Origin: a virus
Reading direction: 5' to 3' (one strand)
Virus record (IMG/VR): IMGVR_UViG_3300025131_000197
Location: 1 to 34,923 of that record
DNA length: 34,923 bases
Under the pieces are notes generated by a model that was not told the origin of the DNA, made no database searches, and saw nothing but the letters and a program-made list of their open reading frames with translations. The position numbers and the translations under genes were made by a program. Positions 1 through 20,500 of this stretch are shown here, one piece after another; the first letter of the stretch is position 1; the number at the start of each line of letters is the position of its first letter.

Positions 1-2064
1 CTACATCAATACTTCCAGTAAACATTGCTAACCGTTGATAGTCTGCATCTAATGCTACTGAACCACTTGAATTATCATATTGTAACCTTCCTCTAGTTAA
101 ATCCCATCCAGCAATCATAGCCCTATTTCTATGAATTAACATTACTGCATTTGTATCTGGATCTGAAATATCACTTCCTGTAAATGCTGCCATTCCATAA
201 TAATGGTTGGTATCTATACTTCCAGTAGGCAAATTACCTACTACAAATCTTGGTTTATCTACATCAATACTACCTGTAAACATAGCTAATCTTTGATAAT
301 TAGCATCTAAAGCAACTGAACCACTTGAATTATCATATTGAAGTCTTGCTGGTGTTAAATCCCACCCTGCAATCATAGCTCTATTTTTATTAACCAACAT
401 CACTGCATTTGTATCTGGATCAGAAATATCCGAACCTGTGAAAGCTGCCATTCCGTAATAAGAAGCACTATCTACACTTCCAGTTGGTAAATTACCAACT
501 ACAAATCGTGGTCTATCCACATCAATACTTCCAGTAAACATAGCAAGTCTTTGATAGTTAGCATCAAGAGCTACAGAACCACTATCGTTGTCGTACTGTA
601 ATCTGCCTGGCGTTAAATCCCAACCTGCAATCATTGCTCTATTTCTATGAACTAACATTACCGCATTTGTATCTGGATCTGAAACTTCACTTCCCGTAAA
701 AGCTGCCATTCCATAATAATGAGTGGTATCTACACTACCAGTTGGAAGTTTACCTACTACGAATCTTGGTTTATCTACATCAATACTACCTGTAAACATA
801 GCTAACCGTTGGTAGTTAGCATCAAGAGCTACAGAACCACTAATGTTATCATATTGAAGTCTCGCTGGTGTTAAATCCCATCCAGCTATCATAGCTCTGT
901 TTTTATTAATCAACATTACTGCATTTGTATCTGGATCAGAAATATCTGAACCTGTAAAAGCTGCCATTCCATAGTAAGAAGCACTATCTACACTACCAGT
1001 TGGTAAATTACCTACAACAAATCGTGGTCTTTCTACATCAATACTGCCTGTGAACATAGCAAGTCTTTGATAGTTAGCATCTAATGCTACTGAACCGCTA
1101 TCATTATCATATTGTAATCTACCTGGAGTCAAATCCCAACCAGCTATCATGGCTCTGTTTTTATGTATTAACATAACCGCATTTGTATCTGGATCTGAAA
1201 TACCACTTCCTGTAAAAGCCGCCATTCCATAATAATGAGAATTATCTACACTACCAGTTGGTAATTTTCCTACTACAAATCTTGGTTTTAATACATCAAT
1301 ACTACCTGTGAACATAGCTAATCTTTGATAATCTGCATCTAATGCTACTGAACCACTATCGTTATCATATTGTAATCTACCTGGAGTCATATCCCAACCA
1401 GCTATCATGGCTCTATTTTTATGAACTAACATTACAGCATTTGTATCTGGGTCAGAAATTTCGCTTCCTGTAAATGCTGCCATTCCGTAATAATGAGAAT
1501 TATCTACACTTCCCGTTGGTAACTTACCCACTACAAATCTTGGTTTTAATACATCAATACTACTTGTATACATTGCTAATCTTTGGTAATCTGCATCAAG
1601 AGCTACTGAACCACTAATATTATCATATTGCAAACGGCCTGGAGTTAAATCCCACCCTGCAATCATAGCTCTATTTTTATTAACCAACATTACTGCGTTT
1701 GTATCTGGATCTGAAACTTCAGAGCCGGTAAAGGCCGCCATTCCATAGTAAGAAGCACTATCTACACTACCAGTTGGCAAATTGCCAACTACAAATCGTG
1801 GTCTTTCTACATCAATACTGCCTGTGAACATTGCTAGTCGTTGATAATCTGCATCAAGAGCAATCGAACCACTAACATCATCATATTGTAAACGACCTGT
1901 AGTCATATCCCAACCAGCAATTGTATGTCTATCATCCGTACTAACAAAAAGAGCATTACTTTCTATATCTGATTCCCAAGCTGCACCACTTCCACTAAAT
2001 ATTGCAAAACCATAATGTGTACCTGCAGACGTTGGTAATTTACCCATTACAACTTTTGGTTGTT
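1..2064 (-). repeat. Eight tandem in-frame 258-bp (86-aa) repeats in the fibre gene
   Basis: The phase marker ctacatcaat or a variant recurs at 1, 259, 517, 775, 1033, 1291, 1549 and 1807, an exact 258-base period, and a diverged echo begins at 2065. Each unit encodes xPRFVVGxLPTGS, then YYGMAAFTGS, SDPDTNAVML, NRAMIAGWDLT, RLQYDN, SGSVALDA and YQRLAMFTGSIDV. The unit at 1807-2064 (nearest the N-terminus) is the most diverged in its first two thirds. The other seven are close at protein level but differ at many third codon positions. The array continues past the left edge, so the copy number is a minimum. Confidence 0.95.
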
Positions 2065-3742
2065 TTACATCTGCATCATTCCAATCACTTGAAGCAGTTA
2101 TACTTGATGTATAAACTGATAATCTTCTAAGATAACTATCCCCATCAAATGATACTGTACCTTCATCTTCACCTCTCCAAAATCTATTTTCTGAAATAGA
2201 CCATCCAGAAAAAACTCCTGAAGATCCATCTCCGTAAGGAAAACTTGAAACTTCAAATACTGAATTATCCGAACCATCTAAAAGTTTAATACCAAAAGTT
2301 GAAGCATCTAACTGTCCAATTCTTGTCCACTCATAAAAATTTGTAGTATCCTTAACTTCAATTCTTGAATCGACAGTATCAGAATATTTTGCCCATAACT
2401 TTACTCCAAGTCCATCTAATGAAGATGTAGTAGCTGTCCATCCAGCAAGTTTTCCACCATATAAAACTTCAACATCAGAAGTAGAAGATGATATTACAAG
2501 ATTAGAAGTTCCCTTAAGTGCGTTTGAAGTACCTCCAAAAGATCCTGAATACACCGCAATATCACCGCCCGATCCACTTTTTATTGATACTGGAGCAGCT
2601 GCACTAGCTAAGGGATCCCATCCAAATGAAGTATATCTATATACTGAATCATCAGTAGTATTAAAAAATAATTGTCCTAATGTTCCTGTAGAAGGATTTG
2701 AAGCTCCACGAGAAAGTATAATACCTGGACCAGTTAAATCTAAACTTCCAGTTAAATTAACAGATCCTGTAATATGTGAAGAACCACTAACATACAATCC
2801 AGATAATCCATACGGGAAACTAAATCCCTCACTTATATTTTCAAAAAAAGCTGGAGTGCTAAGTAAACTATTAACTACATTAAATCTTAAATCATGTCTA
2901 TGGTCTCCTTTAGCGTAAAGACCACCCAAGTTTCCTTCATATGCCCCCTGGTCTACCGATATTGGATTTGGAGTATCACCGTATGCTGTTGGTAAATCAG
3001 CCGAAAAATCTCCCAGTACACTCATATCTAACGCAGCCAACTCTCCAAATGCTGATTCTTCACTTTTAATAACTAACCCATTTTCATCTAACCTAATATA
3101 ACTGTCTGGGGAACTATATATTAATAAACCATCTGGAGTCAATTCTACCGTAGGTTTTTCTATTCCAATTGAAAACTTATCAAAATATAATTCTGTTTCA
3201 CCAGTATAATCACCCACCTTATTAGGATCTGAACCAATACTACCTGTTAGTTGTAACCATATAACTTCAGAATCCACAGGCATAGCAGCGGTAAAGAATT
3301 TCTTTTGAAAATTATTTCCTATAGAAAATCTCTTCCAATTACCACCCCCACCAGAACCAGAACCTGGACCAATATAAGAATATGCACTTCCAGATGGGTA
3401 AATTCTCATTGCACTTCCACTCCATGCCCCATTTTCCCAATTACTTCCACTATTTTCAGCAATTTGTAATCTATACCAATTTGACATACCAGATGGAGAA
3501 CGACTTCCAGATAAGTTAGACCAAAAACTAACAGATACAGTTTCTCCAGCAGAAAAACTACCCGTTAAAACTTGCTCTAAGTAATAACTTCCTGTAACAT
3601 AATTTTCTCCTGCTGATCCTGTGTATGAAGTATCATCATCAGCATCTGGCCAGCCCCAAAAAGACCAATCACCACCACCACCCATTTGTGGTATTGCGGT
3701 AAAATCTTTACCGCCCCAATATGTTATTCTTTTATTTTTCAT
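1..3742 (-). CDS. Giant repeat-containing tail fibre protein, C-terminus beyond the left edge
   Basis: The frame is open from an ATG at 3742 to the left edge, giving 1247 residues with no stop. The start overlaps the stop of the upstream gene as ATGA, so translation is probably coupled. Residues 9-20 carry the WGGxxxTxIPxM motif shared with three other tail proteins here. Residues about 45-195 form a jelly-roll-like, CBM-like stretch ending ELYFDKFSIG. Residues 279-284 read GDHRHD, an HxH pattern common in phage fibres. A stretch near 318-350 (SGSSHITGSVNLTGS) is typical of trimeric fibre shafts. From about residue 560 to the edge the protein is built of eight 86-residue repeats. The domain names are inferred from pattern. 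A receptor-binding or long-fibre role is inferred from size, repeats and position beside another fibre gene. Confidence 0.85.
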   Translation of the reverse strand, partial: MKNKRITYWGGKDFTAIPQMGGGGDWSFWGWPDADDDTSYTGSAGENYVTGSYYLEQVLTGSFSAGETVSVSFWSNLSGSRSPSGMSNWYRLQIAENSGSNWENGAWSGSAMRIYPSGSAYSYIGPGSGSGGGGNWKRFSIGNNFQKKFFTAAMPVDSEVIWLQLTGSIGSDPNKVGDYTGETELYFDKFSIGIEKPTVELTPDGLLIYSSPDSYIRLDENGLVIKSEESAFGELAALDMSVLGDFSADLPTAYGDTPNPISVDQGAYEGNLGGLYAKGDHRHDLRFNVVNSLLSTPAFFENISEGFSFPYGLSGLYVSGSSHITGSVNLTGSLDLTGPGIILSRGASNPSTGTLGQLFFNTTDDSVYRYTSFGWDPLASAAAPVSIKSGSGGDIAVYSGSFGGTSNALKGTSNLVISSSTSDVEVLYGGKLAGWTATTSSLDGLGVKLWAKYSDTVDSRIEVKDTTNFYEWTRIGQLDASTFGIKLLDGSDNSVFEVSSFPYGDGSSGVFSGWSISENRFWRGEDEGTVSFDGDSYLRRLSVYTSSITASSDWNDADVKQPKVVMGKLPTSAGTHYGFAIFSGSGAAWESDIESNALFVSTDDRHTIAGWDMTTGRLQYDDVSGSIALDADYQRLAMFTGSIDVERPRFVVGNLPTGSVDSASYYGMAAFTGSEVSDPDTNAVMLVNKNRAMIAGWDLTPGRLQYDNISGSVALDADYQRLAMYTSSIDVLKPRFVVGKLPTGSVDNSHYYGMAAFTGSEISDPDTNAVMLVHKNRAMIAGWDMTPGRLQYDNDSGSVALDADYQRLAMFTGSIDVLKPRFVVGKLPTGSVDNSHYYGMAAFTGSGISDPDTNAVMLIHKNRAMIAGWDLTPGRLQYDNDSGSVALDANYQRLAMFTGSIDVERPRFVVGNLPTGSVDSASYYGMAAFTGSDISDPDTNAVMLINKNRAMIAGWDLTPARLQYDNISGSVALDANYQRLAMFTGSIDVDKPRFVVGKLPTGSVDTTHYYGMAAFTGSEVSDPDTNAVMLVHRNRAMIAGWDLTPGRLQYDNDSGSVALDANYQRLAMFTGSIDVDRPRFVVGNLPTGSVDSASYYGMAAFTGSDISDPDTNAVMLVNKNRAMIAGWDLTPARLQYDNSSGSVALDANYQRLAMFTGSIDVDKPRFVVGNLPTGSIDTNHYYGMAAFTGSDISDPDTNAVMLIHRNRAMIAGWDLTRGRLQYDNSSGSVALDADYQRLAMFTGSIDV

Positions 3743-4107
3743 ATCTTTTTTTCTAACACCCAAAATTTATCAAGTTTTGAAAATCCCCATCTACGAACCC
3801 AAGTATCTGGATTTCTATGGGTTTGGAATAAAATTCTATTACACCCAAGAGATTTAGCAGATTCAAGAATTTGTTCATAAACTTCATTATCATAATTACT
3901 ATTTTTCTTTAACATTTCTTGTTCAGCATTTGAATCTGCGTAAATACTAAGTATTATACAATCATCATTTTTTTTACGATAATTAACCCATCCCTTTCCA
4001 TTTAAAATTTCCAATGTATGAAAGTTTGGAGAAGTTAAAGTATCTTGATTAAAAAAAGGATCTTTTGCTCTTTGTTTATAATCATTTATATATTTTTGTT
4101 CAATCAT
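3739..4107 (-). CDS. Small GNAT-like (acetyltransferase-type) protein between two fibre genes
   Basis: This is 122 residues when started at ATG 4107. A longer frame begins at 4149, but it overlaps the upstream gene, whereas 4107 lies 13 bases after the upstream stop with AAGGA in between. The C-terminal third, with LGCNRILFQTHRNPDTWVRR then WGFSKL, resembles the end of GNAT acyltransferases, where an alpha/beta segment is followed by a (Y/W)GF turn and a last strand. No clear acetyl-CoA P-loop (Q/RxxGxG/A) is visible, so catalytic activity is doubtful. It sits between two large fibre genes and its stop overlaps the start of the next one. It could act on fibre proteins or be an accessory factor, but that rests on position alone. 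Confidence 0.5.
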   Translation of the reverse strand: MIEQKYINDYKQRAKDPFFNQDTLTSPNFHTLEILNGKGWVNYRKKNDDCIILSIYADSNAEQEMLKKNSNYDNEVYEQILESAKSLGCNRILFQTHRNPDTWVRRWGFSKLDKFWVLEKKI

Positions 4108-9100: not shown

Positions 9101-9274
9101 ATGAAGAAGAAATATTCATTCACAATAGAAGATAGACTAATGGATTGGTTTAGGCTCTATGTTAGAGAAGAAAGCACAACTATGAGTGCTATACTTAATC
9201 AACATATTTTGGGTTTGAAAAGAGAACGGGAAGGACGTCCCGCTCCAAAGAATATTTTAAGAAGTTCTAGTTAA
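9101..9274 (+). CDS. Small ribbon-helix-helix (Arc/CopG-like) DNA-binding protein
   Basis: This is a 57-residue protein from ATG 9101. An upstream in-frame ATG at 9086 overlaps the best ribosome site (ATGGAGA), so 9101 is preferred, with 9 bases after GGAG. The layout fits a ribbon-helix-helix fold: a short strand (KKYSFTIE), helix 1 (DRLMDWFRLYVREE), a TT turn, helix 2 (SAILNQHILGLKRE), then a basic, disordered tail. Such proteins bind DNA as dimers through the paired strands. It is on the opposite strand from nearly everything around it, diverges from the 1628-aa fibre gene, and its last 8 bases overlap the end of the SbcDC gene tail to tail. It may repress the divergent promoter region at 9008-9100. 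Fold call moderate; target inferred. Confidence 0.6.
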   Translation: MKKKYSFTIEDRLMDWFRLYVREESTTMSAILNQHILGLKREREGRPAPKNILRSSS

Positions 9275-12200
9275 ATTTAGAAGGCAAATCAATTTTACTA
9301 TATCCATTTTCTTGTGTAATTTCAAGTAAAGAATCAACAGCATCTCTCATACCTTCAATATGAGATACAATTAATGCAAATTGAAATTGAGTTTTTAAAT
9401 ATTGAAATAACATATAAACAGAATTAAGATTATCAGAATCCATTTTCCCCCAACCTTCATCAATAGCAAGAAAATTACTTCTTGGTAAATTACATACATT
9501 TATTAACGCTGTACGAATTGATAGTGATGATATAAATTTTTCCATCCCGCTACTCAATTCAAGTGGCCAAACATTATCTGCATCATATGCAAGATAAGTA
9601 TTAATGTTCTTACCATCCATTTCAATAACTATACCAAAATCTACCATTTGAGAAAGTATATCATTTACTTCACCTTCAATTGTTGGTAAAGCTTTTTCAA
9701 TCAACTCATATGGAACACCATCTCTTTTTATTGCATCCAAATAATATTCATATGCATTATATTTTTGTTCAAAAGTTTCAACTTTATCAATATCATCCAA
9801 TATACTTTTTTTCTTTGACTTAAATACTTGAATTTCACTATAAATAGTTTGCATCTTTTGTACAAGAACATCAATTTGATAATTAACATTATCTAAATCA
9901 TTTTGTACATTATCAACCTCTGCTTCAATATCTTCATTATATTTAATATCACTTTCCTTCTCATAATACTCTGATATCTTATTATCAACAATAGAAATTT
10001 TTTGTAATATATTTTCTTTATTAGATTTAATTAATATGTTCTCTGAATCTAATTTATTCTGTTGTATATTTGTATTTTTTAAAGCTTCTAAAGTTCTATC
10101 AAAATTAATTTTATCAGTTCTAATTGAATCAATCTCTTTGAGTATATCATCAAGATTATCTATCCGTTCTACATATTTACTAGCAAGTTTTTTATCCTTC
10201 TCAAGTTCATTCTTAGTATGTATAGCATCCTTTACAAAAATATTATTCATACAGTAAGTACACTCTGGATCATATTCAAGATTACCAAGTTTATTTATTT
10301 TATCTATTTTATGTTGAACATCAATTTTTAATTTATCTATTTCAATTTTAGTTTCTGACCTATCACTTTCATATTCTTGTAATTCAAGATATTGTTTATT
10401 AATATTATGTTTAGTATAATGTTCAATACGCTCTTCTAATTCAATTACTTTTACTCCATTTTCATTTTTAGCAGACTTTATTGTACCCAACCTCAAATCA
10501 ATATCTCCAAGAGATTCTTTTAACGTATCTTTAACTTCAACTAGTTTATTTATATTTAATATTGAACTATCAATTGGTTTAATTTTTGTAGTCAACAATA
10601 TAACTTGTTCATCTAAATCACGTTTTTGATCAATTAATTTTTTATTATCATTTTTTAAATTTTTATGATGTTCTTTATAACTTATCATTTCCTTTTCTAT
10701 ATCTGCTAAATCCTTACCATAATCTTGTTTCTTAAAATTTTTCAATACAGAAAGTACATCTTTTATATCTTCTGAAGCAAGTTGGTATAATTCATCAAAA
10801 ATCCCCATTCCCATAAATTGAGCAAGTAATTCTTTCCTTTCTTTTTGTCCCTTATCTATAAAAACAGTAGAATTATCTTGTAAGGATAAAGAAGTCATTA
10901 CAAAATCTTCATAAGTTCCAATTACCTTTCTAATATTTGCATCAGTACTTCTTCTTTGGTCACCATTTAATGATATTTTATCACCACTCTCATCTACTAA
11001 CCAAAATTCAACATCAACTTTTACATGACCCCGTTTTAATTTTTTAGCATGTCGTTCTATAAAATAATCTAACCCTTCAATTTCAAAATTAACTTTACAA
11101 GAAAAAGAACCCTTTTTATTATTTAAAATACGATCTGCTTTAAATGTTCTTGAACACGTATCAAATAAACAAAATGATAAAGCATCTAACATTGCTGATT
11201 TACCACTAGCATTAGGTGCAAACATTCCAATAATACCATTTAACCTAGAAAAATCTACCACATTATCTTCACCATAAGAAAACATATTATCAAATTCAAA
11301 CCGCTTTAATTTCCAAAATACATTACGAGAAATTTCTTCACTTGGTATTAAAGTATTTAAATTATCATTTATATCTTTTATTTTTAATAAAGTATCATCA
11401 TCTACAATATGATTCCGTTTTAAATAATCCTCTATTAATTCATATTGATATCCTGGACTTGTAATATCACCCACATTTATTTGTTTACCATCCCGAACTC
11501 GTTCAGTTAATCTATCAGTTCTATTTACAACTATCTCTTTTATTCCATATCGTTTATGAATAATAGCTAAAGCTTTTTTTAACTGAACAGCATCTGTATC
11601 TGATACTCGTATTCTTAATCTAGCTTTCTGTGGCATATCATTCACATCTGGAACTATACCATTATCAACATCTAATGTATAATAACCATAATCATTCTGA
11701 ATAGGTATATATGTAGATTTACGACTTGGTACATCCCATAACAAATATCCATGATCTAATCCTTCTCCATGATTTTGTTGAACTAATGAACCACAATAAG
11801 AAATAGTTTTCTTTCTATTTAAATGTTGACGTTTATGAATATCACCAAGAAGTGCTAAATCATACCCTCTAAATTTAGAAATTTTTACTTTTGATGGTAA
11901 TCTAAATCCCAAATCAGTTCTTGATTGATCAACAGTTCCATGAAACAATACAACCTTTGTATCACCCTCTATATCCTTTGCTAATGGATAATCCTTTTGA
12001 TTATCCCAAACATCCCACACTGCAAATTGTACATCTGCACATTTATATACTCCAGTATTCTTTAAATAATGTAAATTTTTATGATTTAAATTGTTTACAA
12101 TTGGAGAAAGTACATCCATACGAGAACGATTATTTAAATTACAATCGTGATTTCCAGCAATGATTATAGTAGGACATATATCAGCTAAATTCTTAAACAA

Positions 12201-12428
12201 CCTTGATAGTTGATCAACTAACTCTGGAGACATTTGCGTTTTAGAGTGAGCTATATCTCCCCCAATATATGCTACAGAATTATATGGGTATTTCTTTACC
12301 TCTTCATACAACCGATCAAAAACTTCCTCATATTCTTTATGGCGTTTTAAATTACGAATTTGAATATCTGAAATGTGGTGTATATATCGTAATTTTCTAA
12401 AAGAAACTTTTATAGTATCTTTAATCAA
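9267..12428 (-). CDS. Fused SbcD-SbcC (Mre11-Rad50; T4 gp47-gp46-like) nuclease/ATPase
   Basis: One 1053-residue chain holds both subunits that are usually separate. Residues 1 to about 340 are the SbcD/Mre11 metallophosphoesterase, with SDIQ (20-23), GDIAH (57-61), GNHD (92-95), H163 and GDIH (195-198). The first motif normally reads DxH, but here the His is Gln23. Residues about 370-1053 are SbcC/Rad50: Walker A GMFAPNASGKS (401-411), Q-loop Q517, two coiled-coil arms, zinc hook CTYC (723-726), signature LSSGMEKF (958-965), Walker B FLAIDE (986-991) and H-loop H1023. The start is TTG, overlapping the primase stop as TTGA; the next Met (67) would remove the first two metal motifs. In T4 the complex processes DNA ends for recombination-dependent replication and host DNA breakdown. 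Here it is the last gene of a nuclease-primase cassette. Confidence 0.93.
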   Translation of the reverse strand: MIKDTIKVSFRKLRYIHHISDIQIRNLKRHKEYEEVFDRLYEEVKKYPYNSVAYIGGDIAHSKTQMSPELVDQLSRLFKNLADICPTIIIAGNHDCNLNNRSRMDVLSPIVNNLNHKNLHYLKNTGVYKCADVQFAVWDVWDNQKDYPLAKDIEGDTKVVLFHGTVDQSRTDLGFRLPSKVKISKFRGYDLALLGDIHKRQHLNRKKTISYCGSLVQQNHGEGLDHGYLLWDVPSRKSTYIPIQNDYGYYTLDVDNGIVPDVNDMPQKARLRIRVSDTDAVQLKKALAIIHKRYGIKEIVVNRTDRLTERVRDGKQINVGDITSPGYQYELIEDYLKRNHIVDDDTLLKIKDINDNLNTLIPSEEISRNVFWKLKRFEFDNMFSYGEDNVVDFSRLNGIIGMFAPNASGKSAMLDALSFCLFDTCSRTFKADRILNNKKGSFSCKVNFEIEGLDYFIERHAKKLKRGHVKVDVEFWLVDESGDKISLNGDQRRSTDANIRKVIGTYEDFVMTSLSLQDNSTVFIDKGQKERKELLAQFMGMGIFDELYQLASEDIKDVLSVLKNFKKQDYGKDLADIEKEMISYKEHHKNLKNDNKKLIDQKRDLDEQVILLTTKIKPIDSSILNINKLVEVKDTLKESLGDIDLRLGTIKSAKNENGVKVIELEERIEHYTKHNINKQYLELQEYESDRSETKIEIDKLKIDVQHKIDKINKLGNLEYDPECTYCMNNIFVKDAIHTKNELEKDKKLASKYVERIDNLDDILKEIDSIRTDKINFDRTLEALKNTNIQQNKLDSENILIKSNKENILQKISIVDNKISEYYEKESDIKYNEDIEAEVDNVQNDLDNVNYQIDVLVQKMQTIYSEIQVFKSKKKSILDDIDKVETFEQKYNAYEYYLDAIKRDGVPYELIEKALPTIEGEVNDILSQMVDFGIVIEMDGKNINTYLAYDADNVWPLELSSGMEKFISSLSIRTALINVCNLPRSNFLAIDEGWGKMDSDNLNSVYMLFQYLKTQFQFALIVSHIEGMRDAVDSLLEITQENGYSKIDLPSKFN

Positions 12429-13387
12429 AATATTTCCATATGTTTTCTCGTTTTTCCATTTAATTTATATTTTATTAAGTCTGAAAATTTCATTTTCTTT
12501 GTTTCTTTTAATAGTGGAATAACCTTTTCAAATCCCAAGTCTGATGGATCTTTTTCAGGTAAATCAACAAAATACACTTCAATATCATTTTTCATAAATT
12601 CTTCAACCATTTTTAGAGAATCTAATATAGCATCCTTATCTAAAGATATGTATATCTGTTTAACTTTTTTTTCAATAATTTTTCGTCTAAGATTTGATAA
12701 TATAGTTTTTCCAAATAACGGTATAGCGTTTCGTTTAACTGCTATGGCATCAAATGGGCCTTCACATAAGACTATTGGTTCATCCCAATTTATAAATAAT
12801 TCAAATCCAACCACATTTTTCGGTGTAGGTGAATTTTTATATTTCATTTTACTTTCAAATATATCTCGTCCTACAAAAAAATTCAACTTACCATCTTCAT
12901 CATAACTTGGAATAATAACTCTATTAGTATAAATTCCTTGATCACAATAACCAATATTATATTTTAATACATCCTCGTGTGTAATTCCTCTTTTAGATAA
13001 ATAATATATTGCATGTTTATATATTGGAGATGGATGTTTATATGACAAAGATAAAAATTCTTTTGGTAATTCTACTTTACTTTCTTTTTTTGTAATATCA
13101 CTTCCATAACTTCCATATTTATACGAAGTTGTACCTACTATATCACGAAGTTCTGTAAATTGTTCATTTGTAGCATTTAATTTCTTAAATAATTGAAATA
13201 AATTATGGCCACCTTCGTCACTTACCCAACAATGCCATTTACCACTAATTACATTTATTTGTAACTTTTGTTTATGATGTGAAACAAAAGGAGACCAATA
13301 CATATACTCATTTTGTTTCTTTAGTTTTTGACCTTTAGAACCTACTACTTTATCAATCAAATATACTATATTATTTTGGTCTGTCAT
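12425..13387 (-). CDS. DnaG-type primase-like TOPRIM protein with degenerate zinc ribbon
   Basis: The protein has 320 residues. The N-terminal 20-70 region aligns by pattern with the CHC2 zinc ribbon (SPFVSHHK ... WHCWVSDEGGHN). Only His37/38 and Cys53 remain; the other two expected cysteine positions are Ser32 and Ser56. Residues 155-175 (NRVIIPSYDEDGKLNFFVGR) match the DnaG core element before TOPRIM. TOPRIM motifs are CEGPFDA (E209) and SLDKDA (D250, D252), the usual Glu and DxD metal ligands. No helicase domain is attached. It probably lays RNA primers for phage replication. It overlaps the nuclease gene upstream by 17 bases and the SbcDC gene downstream by 4, so the three look like one translational unit. 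Confidence 0.82.
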   Translation of the reverse strand: MTDQNNIVYLIDKVVGSKGQKLKKQNEYMYWSPFVSHHKQKLQINVISGKWHCWVSDEGGHNLFQLFKKLNATNEQFTELRDIVGTTSYKYGSYGSDITKKESKVELPKEFLSLSYKHPSPIYKHAIYYLSKRGITHEDVLKYNIGYCDQGIYTNRVIIPSYDEDGKLNFFVGRDIFESKMKYKNSPTPKNVVGFELFINWDEPIVLCEGPFDAIAVKRNAIPLFGKTILSNLRRKIIEKKVKQIYISLDKDAILDSLKMVEEFMKNDIEVYFVDLPEKDPSDLGFEKVIPLLKETKKMKFSDLIKYKLNGKTRKHMEIF

Positions 13388-13718
13388 GTATTAATTTTAA
13401 AAATTCATCTATTTCTATAACTACATAAGTTTTACTTCTATTTCTTTTGAATATCAAAACGGGTGGATAATCTCCACTATTTTCTTCAGCCTGTTCTAAC
13501 GATGACCAAATATTTAATTTTTCTTGATTTTTACACTCAAATGAATATGGAATTAGTTTACGAGCTGCAGGGGATAATTTGATATCTTCACCAGTTTCAC
13601 CCATAATTGCTGTACGAATGTCATCTGGTTCTAATTCCTCTGAAAAATGTTCTAATAGAACATCTCTAACTTTGTTTTGGAGTCTACGGCCTTTGGCCTT
13701 ACCTGAGCGTGTGTTCAT
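13371..13718 (-). CDS. PD-(D/E)XK nuclease, Holliday-junction-resolvase-like
   Basis: This is a 115-residue protein with a basic N-terminus. GEDIKLSPAAR (43-53) supplies the Asp of the PD motif, and FECK (60-63) supplies the ExK element followed by a helix with a conserved-type Gln (LEQAEEN, Q76). A strand-rich end (PVLIFKRNRSKTYVVIE) completes the small restriction-endonuclease-like fold. In phages such proteins resolve branched DNA or act as recombination endonucleases. Its operon with a primase and SbcDC supports a role in replication and recombination. The assignment rests on motif order and spacing. Specific substrate is unknown. Only 33 bases separate it from the gene upstream. Confidence 0.65.
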   Translation of the reverse strand: MNTRSGKAKGRRLQNKVRDVLLEHFSEELEPDDIRTAIMGETGEDIKLSPAARKLIPYSFECKNQEKLNIWSSLEQAEENSGDYPPVLIFKRNRSKTYVVIEIDEFLKLIHDRPK

Positions 13719-13751: not shown

Positions 13752-14144
13752 TTAACGAAATTTTTGCTTCCATTTTCTACTATACTCTTTTTGAGCCCAT
13801 TTTTCTGCTTTTTCTTCAAATTCATTATCATCATGGAAATCACGACCTTTATTTACAGCTTCATCACCAGCTTTTTGATATGCTTTTTCATACTTTTTTG
13901 CACCCATTTTTTTCCTATCTGTTGCATGGTCTATTTCGTGTAATACTGTAATTATGAATTCCTTAACTGAAGAATAACTTTTTCTTAAATTAATTATATC
14001 ATTAATCCAATCATAATCTGCTTCATTAGTACCTTTACTTTTTCCAAATCTAACCTTTGAACGTAACTTATAACTTTTAATTAACTGTACTGCAGTTTCA
14101 TGATAATCAATTCTTTCTGATAATAAACTTTTTAATTTAATCAT
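13752..14144 (-). CDS. HExxH zinc-metallopeptidase-like protein with capsid-targeting-like leader
   Basis: The protein has 130 residues from ATG 14144, which overlaps the upstream stop as TAATG. A longer frame from 14156 adds four residues, but the shared MIKLK start argues for 14144. HEIDH at 69-73 is a zinc-binding HExxH motif in a helix. NEFEEKAEKWAQK (about 107-119) supplies a downstream Glu in the arrangement used as third ligand by gluzincins of the M78/SprT type. The N-terminus MIKLKSLLSE matches that of the next gene upstream and ends in LSE, fitting the (L/I)xE cleavage rule of T4-type prohead protease. A role as a peptidase carried in the capsid and delivered with DNA is inferred, not shown. 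No signal peptide or membrane segment was seen. Confidence 0.6.
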   Translation of the reverse strand: MIKLKSLLSERIDYHETAVQLIKSYKLRSKVRFGKSKGTNEADYDWINDIINLRKSYSSVKEFIITVLHEIDHATDRKKMGAKKYEKAYQKAGDEAVNKGRDFHDDNEFEEKAEKWAQKEYSRKWKQKFR

Positions 14145-14521
14145 TACCAATCCCATCCTATCATAGATTTTGTTCTTTTAAAATTGTCTGACGCTTCTTT
14201 TGGTGTATATTTTTTCACATTCTTTGGATTCCAGAATTTATAAAATTCTCTTTTAGGCCATCCCTTCATAGCCCATTTACTTGTACGAGGTCCTTTCGGG
14301 TCATTCGTTTGCCAATCTTTTACTAAATTACCTTCCTCTACCCAAGCGTGTGGATACCTCTTATTGTTACTAATCCATTTATTCTGAACTGTACCAAATG
14401 CAATCTTCATTCTACGATTTGCCGATTTATTATCTTGGTTTACAATATAGGTTCTCCAAGCATAAGAAAGACATTCACCACAGGCGATAGTTTCAGTTAA
14501 TAAATCTTTTAATTTAATCAT
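14144..14521 (-). CDS. Transglutaminase/papain-fold-like protein with capsid-targeting-like leader
   Basis: This is a 125-residue protein. After the leader MIKLKDLLTE comes CGECLSYAWRTYI, with Cys14 and Cys17 at the start of a predicted helix, then HAWVEEGNLVKDWQ with His58 and Asp69. Cys at a helix start, then HAWVE, then Asp on the next strand is the Cys-His-Asp pattern of transglutaminase-like and related cysteine peptidases. The C-terminal third is rich in Lys and Trp. It overlaps the zinc-peptidase-like gene by one base (TAATG), and no strong ribosome site is visible, so the two may be co-translated. The leader suggests packaging into the head. The enzyme class is inferred from pattern only; an amidase or inactive homologue is possible. 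Confidence 0.5.
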   Translation of the reverse strand: MIKLKDLLTETIACGECLSYAWRTYIVNQDNKSANRRMKIAFGTVQNKWISNNKRYPHAWVEEGNLVKDWQTNDPKGPRTSKWAMKGWPKREFYKFWNPKNVKKYTPKEASDNFKRTKSMIGWDW

Positions 14522-14523
14522 TT

Positions 14524-15552
14524 TTATACATCAAACCTTACAACAAAATTAAGTGGTAATGAGTCATCATTTTTTATTGGTTTTGCTAATTTTCCAACAG
14601 CAGCCAGATCTCCACCTTCAGTATAAAGTCCTACTGTTGTTACATATGGAGACCAATCCGAATGTGTGGCTTCAGTTGTAAAAAATTCTGTAGCTTGGTA
14701 TGAAGTTTGATATGATCCACTCCCCCCAAATGAATTTGATTGTGAAATTGGCTTATCTCCTGGAGGAAAGTAGATATGAATTTTTGGTGTTCCTTCTGTT
14801 ACAGTTATACTTCCACTTCTTTGATGTGATACACTTGGATTTGTAGTAAAATTAAATTCATTTATATTTGTTCTACATACATATTCATGTTCAAGTATAG
14901 TATGAGTTGATCTAAATTCTGTACTAAACCCATCAGATCCTGTACCCAAACTACACGAAACATATCTTGAACCTGTATCCGTAATAACTACTATACCATG
15001 TGAATAAAAAACATTTCCAACAACACTTCCACTACCATTTTCTGAACCTAGTGCTCCAACATCCCATTGATTGCTAGAATATGAAGCAAAACTAGCTGAA
15101 TACTCAATATCATATAAATTTCCATACTTATCATCTTTAATAACCACAGTTTCACTAGTAAAATCATCAGTCAAAGTTAAAGATCCAGGATGTATTTTTT
15201 CTCCAAAATATTCTTGTGGAATTGTTATAATATTAGCTCTATCATGTAACTTTCTTTTTTCTTTTTCTGTTCTATTTCCACCAAATGTTTGCCAAGGTTG
15301 ATCAGAATCAGAATAATATAAATGATTTATAAGTTGATATGCTGGTTCTTTATAAAAAGATTGAGAATACGGATAATTTGATTTTGAATAGGATTGTGAT
15401 GGTGAGTTTATAGGATCAAAATCCCAAGAAGTACCATAAAAAGTTTCTAAACCAATAACACCACTTCCACTATCAGCTTCAGTTAATGTAAATTGTTTAT
15501 AAGTTTTAAATGGTTTTATTGAAATATCACCAGATTCTATTTTTTTTAACAC
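14524..15552 (-). CDS. Phage structural protein, C-terminal TTVGLY module
   Basis: The protein has 342 residues. The start is GTG, supported by AAAGGAG six bases upstream. The N-terminus includes ISIKPFKTYKQFTL, then a Ser/Tyr-rich segment. The last 80 residues (CRTNINEFNFTTNP, YVTTVGLY, LAAVGKLAKP, VVRFDV) match the end of the 379-residue protein encoded just upstream, so the two are paralogues at least in this module. A segment with GEKIHPGSLTL near residue 120 also has a counterpart (REKMDPGNWEL) there. It is probably a virion or tail appendage protein. No enzymatic motif was seen. Its exact place in the particle is unknown. Confidence 0.65.
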   Translation of the reverse strand: MLKKIESGDISIKPFKTYKQFTLTEADSGSGVIGLETFYGTSWDFDPINSPSQSYSKSNYPYSQSFYKEPAYQLINHLYYSDSDQPWQTFGGNRTEKEKRKLHDRANIITIPQEYFGEKIHPGSLTLTDDFTSETVVIKDDKYGNLYDIEYSASFASYSSNQWDVGALGSENGSGSVVGNVFYSHGIVVITDTGSRYVSCSLGTGSDGFSTEFRSTHTILEHEYVCRTNINEFNFTTNPSVSHQRSGSITVTEGTPKIHIYFPPGDKPISQSNSFGGSGSYQTSYQATEFFTTEATHSDWSPYVTTVGLYTEGGDLAAVGKLAKPIKNDDSLPLNFVVRFDV

Positions 15553-16788: not shown

Positions 16789-17445
16789 TTATTCAGCTGT
16801 AGTTGAACTAGTGCTTGCTGGTGGATTGACTACTACTGAAACTGTATATGTCGTTCCTGTTTGATTTCCAGTTATAGTTAATTGAGTTGTCATTGCTGAC
16901 ACAACTGTTCTCGAAATTATATTAACTGATTGCCCAACTAACACAACACTTAATTTACGTTCTTCATCTGTCATAAAAACAGGTGCAGTTGGTGTTCCTC
17001 CTGGAATACCACCTCCTGTTGCTAATGTCATTCTACATGCATCAGAATTATGAAGTGTGAAAGTATATCCTAAAGCTGCGTCTGATCCGTTTCTTGTATT
17101 TGGAGACACAGTTTGTGTAATTCCTGCCCCATTAAATGTAAATGATGGTGCTGGTAATTCAAGAATTGGCAGTTTAGTTGTATTCTTTGGTAAAGTTGTA
17201 AGTTTATACCTCATAATCTGATTTTCATCTGGACTTGCTTCTAATAAAGGCATATTTTCAATAACTTCTCCATAATAATTAGTCCCATTAGGATGGGTAA
17301 CATCCCACAATGTATAATCAATTTCATCATCAGATAAAGCAAATTTTGTTATTTTGAATTCATTCTTTCCTCGTGCCAATAACTCTCGACCTTTTTTAGT
17401 TAAAATAGCATCTACAGTAATTGATGTGTTGTCAAGAAATCCCAT
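16789..17445 (-). CDS. Phage structural protein beginning MGFLDNTSITVDAILTKKG
   Basis: The protein has 218 residues with CAGGAG about seven bases before the ATG. The N-terminal 70 residues (ITVDAILTKKGRELLARG, KITKFALSDDEIDYTLWD, PLLEA) form a mixed alpha/beta domain that I associate with small virion proteins of marine tailed phages. The middle and C-terminal parts are Thr/Ser/Val-rich and strand-rich, resembling an Ig-like or BIG-type domain (TTQLTITGNQTGTTYTVSV). No catalytic motif, membrane segment or coiled coil was seen. It is the first gene after a 105-base gap with a candidate promoter, followed closely by the 379-residue structural gene. The function is probably structural; the precise role is unknown. 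Confidence 0.6.
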   Translation of the reverse strand: MGFLDNTSITVDAILTKKGRELLARGKNEFKITKFALSDDEIDYTLWDVTHPNGTNYYGEVIENMPLLEASPDENQIMRYKLTTLPKNTTKLPILELPAPSFTFNGAGITQTVSPNTRNGSDAALGYTFTLHNSDACRMTLATGGGIPGGTPTAPVFMTDEERKLSVVLVGQSVNIISRTVVSAMTTQLTITGNQTGTTYTVSVVVNPPASTSSTTAE

Positions 17446-17519
17446 TTTTTTCTCCTGTTTTTTTAAATTTAAATAATCCTCTGGAAATTATTCAAAAACT
17501 TGAAATATAACTACTCACA

Positions 17520-17530
17520 TATAAATATAA
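17520..17530 (-). promoter_or_regulatory. Candidate phage promoter element (TTATATTTATA)
   Basis: The minus strand reads TTATATTTATA in the 105-base gap between the end of the gpI/PKD gene and the 218-residue gene. It is 74 bases upstream of the ATG at 17445, which has its own AGGAG site. The element is identical over 11 bases to those at 15591 and 34369. No hairpin terminator was seen in this gap. Confidence 0.45.
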
Positions 17531-17550
17531 AAGTTTTGAATTTTTCCACC

Positions 17551-20500
17551 TTATTCTACTCTCAATTTAGAATCACTTGGATCTTGTGATACTAATACCG
17601 TTGGTGATGTCAACGTCAATTCAACTACCTTCTCACCAAAAAGAGTTGTTTCATCAGTATTTTTACATCCCTCATAATATAATCTATTATATGAAATATT
17701 TTCTTCTACCCTTGTGTCATATGAACTTCTAAAATATGAAGAACTATAGGGCCAATTCATAGACTGACTAAAACTTGAACTAAAATATAATTCCATCTCA
17801 TAATTAAAATCTGACAATCTTGAAGCAGAAATAAATGGTTGTACTGCTTCAACAAAAACATATTTTGGACCACCAAGTACAACTGATCCAGATTGATATT
17901 CTACCCAATCTCCATTTATTTCTCCAAATTTAACAAGAGTTGGTTGTTGTAAATAATCTGATGTATCAACGTTCCCGTCAGAATACTGTTGATATCCTCC
18001 AGGAATAATAAAATCTTCTATTTCAATAAGTGATGTATATGTATTTTCATTTCCTGTAAAAGTATATGTACTTGCAGTAAAATTAAGTGGAGCAGTATAC
18101 TGATTATGATATCCAATAAGTGATATATCCTCATTTATTTCTATGGAAGCTGAATGTTTTGGCATTTCACCAGTTACTACTATGCCATCATCTATAACTA
18201 TAGTTGATTCATAAGATAAATTTTCAAAGTACGGTGGATTTCCAATAATAACTTTTGGACGTTCAAGTATATTAGGTTCAACAACTACTCCAGTAAGTAC
18301 ATTTGCTCTAGCTGGAACTAATTTTTTTAACTGGTCAAATATTGAAAAATCGTAATTTTTAATAAGTCTCATATAATCCCAAAAATTATTTGGAGAAGTA
18401 TATTTTTGCCAATAAGAATCTCTAACTAATCTTAACCTTTTATATGATAATTCCCACTTATCTCGTGGATCTCCAACAAAATTATAAAAATCGGCTCCAC
18501 CAAGAGCCATTATAATATCTTCATTAATTACATCTGTTGGAGAAAAATATATTCCAATCTTATTTGAATCTAAAGGAGCAAAATCAAGATTACTTTTTTC
18601 TTTACGTTCTGTAGCACTTAAATGTATATACCCATCTGATCCTAATTCAATATAATTATTTTCAATTCTAATCTTATTAGAAGTTGGACGATTAGCTCCT
18701 ATATTTGGCATTATTACTTTTAATTTATCCGCTACAGCAGCAAAGTGTGGTCTATTGCCCTCTGTATACCCAATAGCACTTCCAGATTGAATGTAAGATT
18801 GGTCAGCACTTGTATCACCAATATCACCATCAAGGTCAAGATTTTTATTATCGTTAAATGAATATCTTAAAACCAAATCTGTATATGAAGCAGATATGTG
18901 ATTGCCATCATATGATTGTGGAGCCTCAACATGATTATCAAATGAAGATGTATTTAAAGTTGAATTCCAATATCTAAATTCCATCATATTCCCTGTAAAC
19001 TGGGAGCCAAAATCGTCACTTGGTTTTCCACCTATATATGATGTCTCATCCCCCACATAAGCACTATTATAAGAACTTTCTGTTGTACCATCTATAGACA
19101 TAGTAACAACCGAACTAAACATAATTTTTTCCATAGATTCATCATATTGTTTTGCAAATAATTGATATTCATTATCTATTCCAGTAGAATCACTACCTGT
19201 CATTCTTCTCATCATAACAGAAAAATATTTATCATTATAAACTGGTAATAACGAAGAACTTAATTCTTTATATCCACTAACTCCATTTAATAAAAACGAT
19301 ACATATCCGTAATTATCTGTTGAACCATTATCAGTCAATCTAATTGCCCAATCTGTTCCCGCCTGTACAAGAGTTTGGTTAGACCCAGTTGCAGTTTTAA
19401 ATCTAAATTCAACTGTATCTGGTTTTCTATTACTACTAGTATCATCCACCCAAGTAGTTTCAATATATTGACCACCCTTAAGATCAAGTGCTTTCGTAAA
19501 ATTTCTTAGTTGTAAATAAGATGGTGGTGCATCAGGTGGATCTGCTCCTCCAAATTCTTTTATTCTTAATATAGAAGTTGATATCCCAAAACAATTAAGA
19601 ACTGCTTTCAGAGATCTAATTGTTCCTTTAGTTTTTAAAATAAAAGGTAAATTATTAATTAATCTATTTTGTATATCCTTAGCAATATCCCTATCTGATA
19701 ATCCATGCGTGGTTACATCCCCAGAACCACTTACAATTTTACCAAGAGAATATTGAGATAAGGAAATAAGACTTTTACCATCTTCCATATGAAGTCCTAA
19801 TGATTTAGCCACATCAAAAATTAAATCTTTAGATATTCCAATTGACATATCATCATCTCTATTATGAATATCTGGCATATGTTTTATGTAGCTCCAAATA
19901 TTATCAAAATATTCTCCAAACATATCCAAAAAATTTAAAAATAAAGCATTACCATCATCACCAGCAACATGCATTGGAAGTTGATTTGACAACATATTTA
20001 AATTTTTCATATCATAGAAAGAAGCACTTTCAATTTGATTGTCATACCACTCTGTAACTTGTGATGAAGTTACTGGATACAAACTATATGGTTTACTTGA
20101 ATTTGTTTTTGGCCAAGAATTATCAAAATATTCACCAACTGAACTACTAACATAAGACGAACTTTCAAAATACAAATATTTTTCATACCCCATAAAACTA
20201 TTTATTGTTTGTCGTTTTTTAAGGTCCCAGCTAGCAACAATATCAGAAGAACCACTAACGGATGAAGAATAATAATTACTCTGGCTAGTATATAATTCAA
20301 TATTTTCTAATTTAGATTTAAAATTTTCAATTCGTTTTTTAGCAGAACTAAAATTAATGAAATTCTCATACTTACTATAATCAACATTAAGATATGAACT
20401 TCCTACTGGATTACTTGCACTAAAAATTAAATTTTCTAAATCATCTGATACAGTTTGATCATCTGTTAATATTTCATCCCAAGTTTGATACTGAGTTTCT

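Follow-up and report, generated by a model that had tools for sequence, protein, structure and literature searches.

We found that a ten-residue N-terminal leader, MIKLKxLLxE, carried by two adjacent genes in the window (the whole 34.9-kb stretch of viral DNA analyzed here), quite probably acts as the capsid-targeting sequence in a lineage of T4-related myoviruses. Cargo bearing it would be docked in the prohead, cut by a gp21-type protease and ejected, and the lineage would also make cargo polyproteins. The internal proteins of T4 have been known for decades. For one of them, IPIII, the ten N-terminal residues are enough for packaging, and gp21 cleavage follows L/I-x-E (PMC9026906). As read from the T4 record, the leader of IPII and IPIII is MKTYQEFIAE, which matches MIKLKxLLxE in length and in its hydrophobic-hydrophobic-x-E end and otherwise has little identity to it. 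A literature search found no paper that describes the MIKLKxLLxE leader.

Both genes lie on the minus strand. Protein A (P0002; 14144-14521, 125 aa) begins with MIKLKDLLTE (14492-14521), a predicted capsid-targeting sequence with a predicted cut after E10, followed by a body with C14/C17, H58 and D69. Protein B (P0001; 13752-14144, 130 aa) begins with MIKLKSLLSE (14115-14144), followed by a body with the HEIDH motif at residues 69-73 and E110/E114. The first-pass annotation had reported the two open reading frames, their near-identical leaders, the catalytic-type motifs and the absence of relationship between the bodies, and we recovered all of these. The genes overlap by one base (TAATG), and that for protein A begins directly behind a structural-type ORF (14524-15552, minus strand). 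An alternative ATG for protein B lies 12 bases further upstream, at 14156, but the leader ATG at 14144 is the better start because relatives retain MIKLK there. E10 and R11 of protein B are invariant in nine aligned sequences, and C14/C17, H58 and D69 in protein A and HEIDH with E110/E114 in protein B are invariant in relatives, or so wherever covered.

The annotation had also called both proteins peptidase-like, a description that fits protein B and is probable for protein A. The AlphaFold (AF2) model of protein B has a pLDDT of 87, with residues 1-9 disordered, and its order of elements (helix, three strands, HEIDH helix, helix, Glu helix) is that described for zincins (PMC5512222). The best Foldseek matches were mini-gluzincins (probability 0.92-0.96, E about 0.1), and VIA-align returned mostly zincins, all with Z below 8: IrrE/PprI (Z 7.8), a DNA-protein-crosslink repair protease (Z 7.2) and ArdC (Z 6.9). 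Protein B matched MPTase-PolyVal (PF18818) with E=2e-4 and 21.8 bits; because this score is below the Pfam cut-off of 27.5, we file it as a zincin and not as a member of PF18818. By fold and motif, protein B is a zincin-like metallopeptidase with predicted activity. The model of protein A is of low confidence (pLDDT 61), with the Cys at a helix start and His58/Asp69 on strands. Foldseek found nothing significant for it among solved structures, while papain, NlpC and transglutaminase-like folds dominated a weak VIA-align list (Z up to 4.6), which points to a probable papain-like cysteine enzyme.

The window holds baseplate, fibre and gp46/47/primase-type genes, and those around proteins A and B are packed head to tail. 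On the far side of the two genes lie a RusA-like/PDDEXK nuclease gene (13371-13718), conserved in the related contigs G001, G003 and G004, and a conserved flank encoding a DnaG-type primase (12425-13387), both on the minus strand. The ORF at 14524-15552, in the fibre/baseplate region, forms the other border of a variable cassette. It had been proposed that proteins A and B act as an anti-host pair, but the pairing is not conserved: G001 and G003 have protein B without A, with about 5 kb of other genes at the cassette site, and G005 and G006 have A without B. We therefore rejected a functional pairing, since relatives hold one protein without the other; the two are tenants of a variable cassette between the fibre gene and the RusA/primase genes. 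At G001:76100-81500 and G003:26250-30900, secreted or lipoprotein-like and thioredoxin-like genes replace protein A, marking a hypervariable spot beside the metallopeptidase gene. Two other minus-strand ORFs of the window were conspicuous. An open-ended, fibre-like one (2-3763) contains many near-identical tandem repeats of AGWDLTPGRLQYDNxSGSVALDADYQRLAMFTGSIDV, and a single 1053-aa one (9267-12428) looks like a fusion of a gp47-type nuclease and a gp46-type ATPase.

Relatives of protein A were found at L007 (94%), L080, L009 and L079. When the baseplate wedge protein is used for comparison, the window lies closest among named phages to Microcystis phage Mel-JY01 (46%) and the Flavobacterium immuto phages (38%); each of these encodes a gp21 prohead protease and a T4-type capsid. 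Among 50,697 named phage records there were no relatives of P0001, P0002 or the one polyprotein tested. A search of the 34.9-kb window detected the leader on proteins A and B only and found neither head genes nor a prohead protease; G001 and G003, its nearest large relatives, are themselves fragments without head genes. Related contigs carry the leader on other unrelated proteins too: G005 has about nine, G006 has four, G004 has three and Mel-JY01 has two, at 60276 and 60923.

We scanned IMG/VR for the pattern M-I-K-[LF]-K-x-[LF]-[LF]-x-E and found it in at least 120 stretches. Among the matches listed, from 80 loci, 82 of 92 were gene-like ORF starts. The codon-reversed control pattern occurred in 55 stretches of the whole collection, of which 5 were gene-like (Fisher p about 3e-23), and in bacterial and archaeal genomes the leader pattern was gene-like in 11 of 118 matches. 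Since the scan loci had been picked by the leader itself, we addressed that bias with 74 MIKLK-start ORFs not selected by the scan pattern. [LIVM]xE ended exactly at residue 10 in 49 of these and within residues 9-12 in 57, compared with about 1-2 of 74 at most other positions. A chance match in AT-rich DNA was rejected by the reversed-pattern and bacterial/archaeal controls together with this unselected set. One jumbo-phage-sized record (L064/G019, 368,758 bp) has eight leader-pattern matches, and its gp21 match falls into two parts within a 367-aa frame.

The leader keeps company with the prohead protease. Among contigs longer than 20 kb, gp21 (PF03420) was present in 27 of 44 with leaders versus 4 of 34 controls (p about 6e-6), a statistic that overstates independence, as do the others given here, since many contigs are redundant or related (e.g. 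G014/G038 and G018/G028). The group's capsid gene was likewise missing from 16 of the 17 class-1 contigs without gp21. The exception, G016, is cut off about 9 kb ahead of that gene and has leader genes at positions 485 and 868, within its first kilobase. In the 207-kb leader record G036 we saw neither gp21 nor the group's capsid protein. Leader genes also cluster around the protease gene, with 24 lying between 1.5 kb upstream and 7 kb downstream of it where 10 were expected (0 of 5000 permutations). The T4 counterpart of the stretch around and after gp21 holds core and scaffold genes. In G005, which encodes a 94% copy of protein A, gp21 lies at 17066-17671, along with scaffold and capsid genes and with other leader genes in between, and in G006 the protein A copy is directly upstream of scaffold and capsid. 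Within one genome, gp21 was seen only alongside this 94% copy of protein A and, beyond that, in phages more distantly related. The proposed likeness to the T4 capsid-targeting sequence is supported by the ten-residue length, the (L/I)xE end, the many unrelated bodies, the co-occurrence and co-localization with gp21, and the shared motif in capsid protein, scaffold and gp21 described next.

The same candidate cut site recurs in the head proteins of these phages. In all 19 capsid N-termini examined, an [LIV]xE with A, S or T as the next residue (QLIDEA etc.) stands ahead of a variable linker, near the position of LTE65 before A in T4 gp23. The scaffold starts MAKSDLLKE-A, comparable to MLKEQLIAE-A of T4 gp22, and most of the gp21 proteins have an [LI]xE-[SA] site (QINES-type) near their own N-terminus.

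It also recurs inside longer proteins. Searches with leader-stripped bodies identified 73 junctions within longer ORFs, and [LIVM]xE fell at offsets -2, -1 and 0 of these in 9, 14 and 14 cases (37 in total), against about 2.4 per background offset. In L066 a protein B homolog comes after a Nudix-like and a further cargo module (LLLE, then RIDYLDT), and one in L006 follows a fossil leader, IIKLKDLLFE. Downstream of gp21, an ORF in G008 has EGKLTE four times between modules and one in G050 has ten candidate sites compared with 2.5 in shuffles. In other polyproteins the site density was only modestly above that of shuffles, so the polyprotein reading depends mainly on homologous boundaries. The ORFs downstream of gp21 in L230 and L233 are large polyproteins with a MPAKSKAQQRFMGMV-like start, in which [LIV]xE junctions repeatedly separate unrelated modules. 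One polyprotein ORF, at L233:11374-13467, is 698 aa long. A literature search on polyproteins and prohead proteases found nothing relevant beyond the polyvalent-protein paper (PMC5512222).

A second leader, MKITKSQLKEIIKEE, is just as widespread and co-occurs with gp21 (30 of 43 contigs). We observed it in L232, L237, L267, L272 and others, often on successive genes. The 390 proteins with a leader of either class fall into 273 sequence families, and seven body families (single linkage), such as the ELKLYIDND family, were found with either leader. Pfam domains in class-1 bodies include NUDIX, HD, GNAT, Zeta/AAA_33, ART-PolyVal, MPTase-PolyVal, Mom and lysozymes; a comparison of the leader bodies with defence genes gave one weak match only. 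The ART-PolyVal domain is found, for example, in a leader protein at L156:1479-2225 (minus strand).

These bodies bear on what the leader delivers. It may recruit proteins to the prohead core that are themselves structural core or scaffold components, kept in or cleared from the head and never delivered. In many contigs a leader family among the largest (e.g. MIKLKDLLNEEDVQQLPSNIKKHFLEIISTYG) does occupy the interval from gp21 to the capsid gene and has the look of a core protein, and the start of the scaffold is itself a similar DLLKE leader. However, many bodies are recognizable enzymes (zincin, NUDIX, HD, GNAT, ART-PolyVal and Zeta-type kinase), they vary highly between phages, and their genes often sit at a distance from the head cluster, those in the window included. 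We consider a purely structural role for the cargo unlikely.

It is considerably less probable that the leader is a docking peptide for some other machine, such as a chaperonin or the tail/baseplate hub, and that its (L/I)xE ending is incidental. A chaperonin role has been cited for the N-terminus of a T4 head protein (PMC10052503), some leader proteins have lysozyme or M23 domains, and the genes for proteins A and B sit in a tail-gene region. Such docking would leave unexplained the proximity and co-occurrence of leader genes with gp21, and the placement of [LIVM]xE at residue 10, at body boundaries in polyproteins and in the N-termini of gp21, scaffold and capsid. One leader protein, at L114:6471-7706 (minus strand), has M23 and tail-lysozyme domains, and proteins of this kind could be tail or lysis proteins instead.

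Of 196 leader-encoding 30-mers, 192 are distinct, and codon use in the leaders equals that in the bodies, so selection acts on the peptide. The bases upstream of leader genes are not conserved, and the simple motifs that we tested for a shared late promoter upstream of these genes showed no enrichment. A reading of the shared start purely at the level of DNA, as a translation-initiation region or recombination cassette that does nothing as a peptide, is scarcely credible: the leader does include the start codon and neighboring genes are packed head to tail, but the codon diversity of the leaders rejects a DNA-level cassette, the upstream sequence varies, and [LIVM]xE is fixed at residue 10 and recurs in polyproteins, where no start codon is needed.

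We return to the leader as a capsid-targeting sequence. Comparison of sequences establishes the leader, the candidate cleavage motif, its linkage to gp21 and the modularity of the cargo. Cargo proteins would be synthesized late, and MIKLKxLLxE would dock them on the prohead scaffold core. The gp21-type protease would then cut after the (L/I)xE glutamate (E10) and free the mature body inside the head, where it would be retained. Packaging and trimming of this kind are well supported by the comparative data and by analogy with T4 biochemistry, from both of which we infer them. On the precedent of the T4 internal proteins and Alt, the bodies may leave the head together with the DNA and act on host targets, and the cleavage motif would likewise separate the modules of the polyproteins. 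Proteins A and B may thus have an anti-host role, for which anti-restriction or host-takeover proteolysis are natural guesses. The wider proposal, that an uncultivated T4-related lineage loads many effectors per head by means of a two-class address tag and polyproteins cut by the prohead protease, we regard as evenly poised.

The capsid-targeting and internal-protein system of T4 is already known; what would be new here is its greatly expanded form, the second leader class and the putative protease-cut cargo polyproteins. If the leader is a capsid tag, ten residues would suffice to spot the effectors that uncultivated viruses deliver, among them peptidases, ADP-ribosyltransferases, nudix and HD hydrolases and kinases, and the tag alone would catalogue hundreds of injected host-takeover proteins. 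The head protease would then be an effector polyprotein processor, comparable to the processing of RNA-virus polyproteins, and protease-processed cargo polyproteins would be predicted in DNA phages. A packaging signal with its cognate protease would also be open to direct laboratory test.

Several known systems resemble parts of this one. The ArdC antirestriction protein of plasmid R388 shares the zincin fold class of protein B (VIA-align Z 6.9, rmsd 3.4, 91 residues), whereas protein B has only the length of the metallopeptidase domain, is phage-encoded, bears a leader and has a predicted function. In phiKZ and SPN3US many of the packaged proteins are cleaved after Glu by a protease related to gp21, but these proteins have long propeptides, an S/A-x-E motif in phiKZ and no shared ten-residue leader (PMC9026906, PMC10052503). 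Polyvalent proteins (Iyer et al. 2017, PMC5512222) have overlapping domains (zincin MPTase and ART), a proposed delivery with DNA and an analogy to polyproteins. They differ in being single large multidomain chains with proposed self-cutting by their own MPTases, while the leader group consists of separate small proteins, or of chains with prohead-protease sites between modules. The T4 Alt ADP-ribosyltransferase is a head-packaged enzyme processed by gp21, and one leader protein matches ART-PolyVal; Alt is processed at both ends (PMC9026906), whereas the small leader enzymes share one N-terminal leader. The leader group shares with T4 IPI-III a ten-residue (L/I)xE leader on unrelated small proteins, gp21 and a scaffold core in the lineage, and variable content. 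The three T4 internal proteins block GmrSD-type restriction enzymes, most other internal proteins have no known target, and ten or so body families have been reported among T-even phages (PMC12373910). The MIKLKxLLxE group has far more body families than these ten or so (PMC12373910), and it differs from IPI-III in its leader sequence, its recognizable enzymes, its second leader class and its polyprotein cargo.
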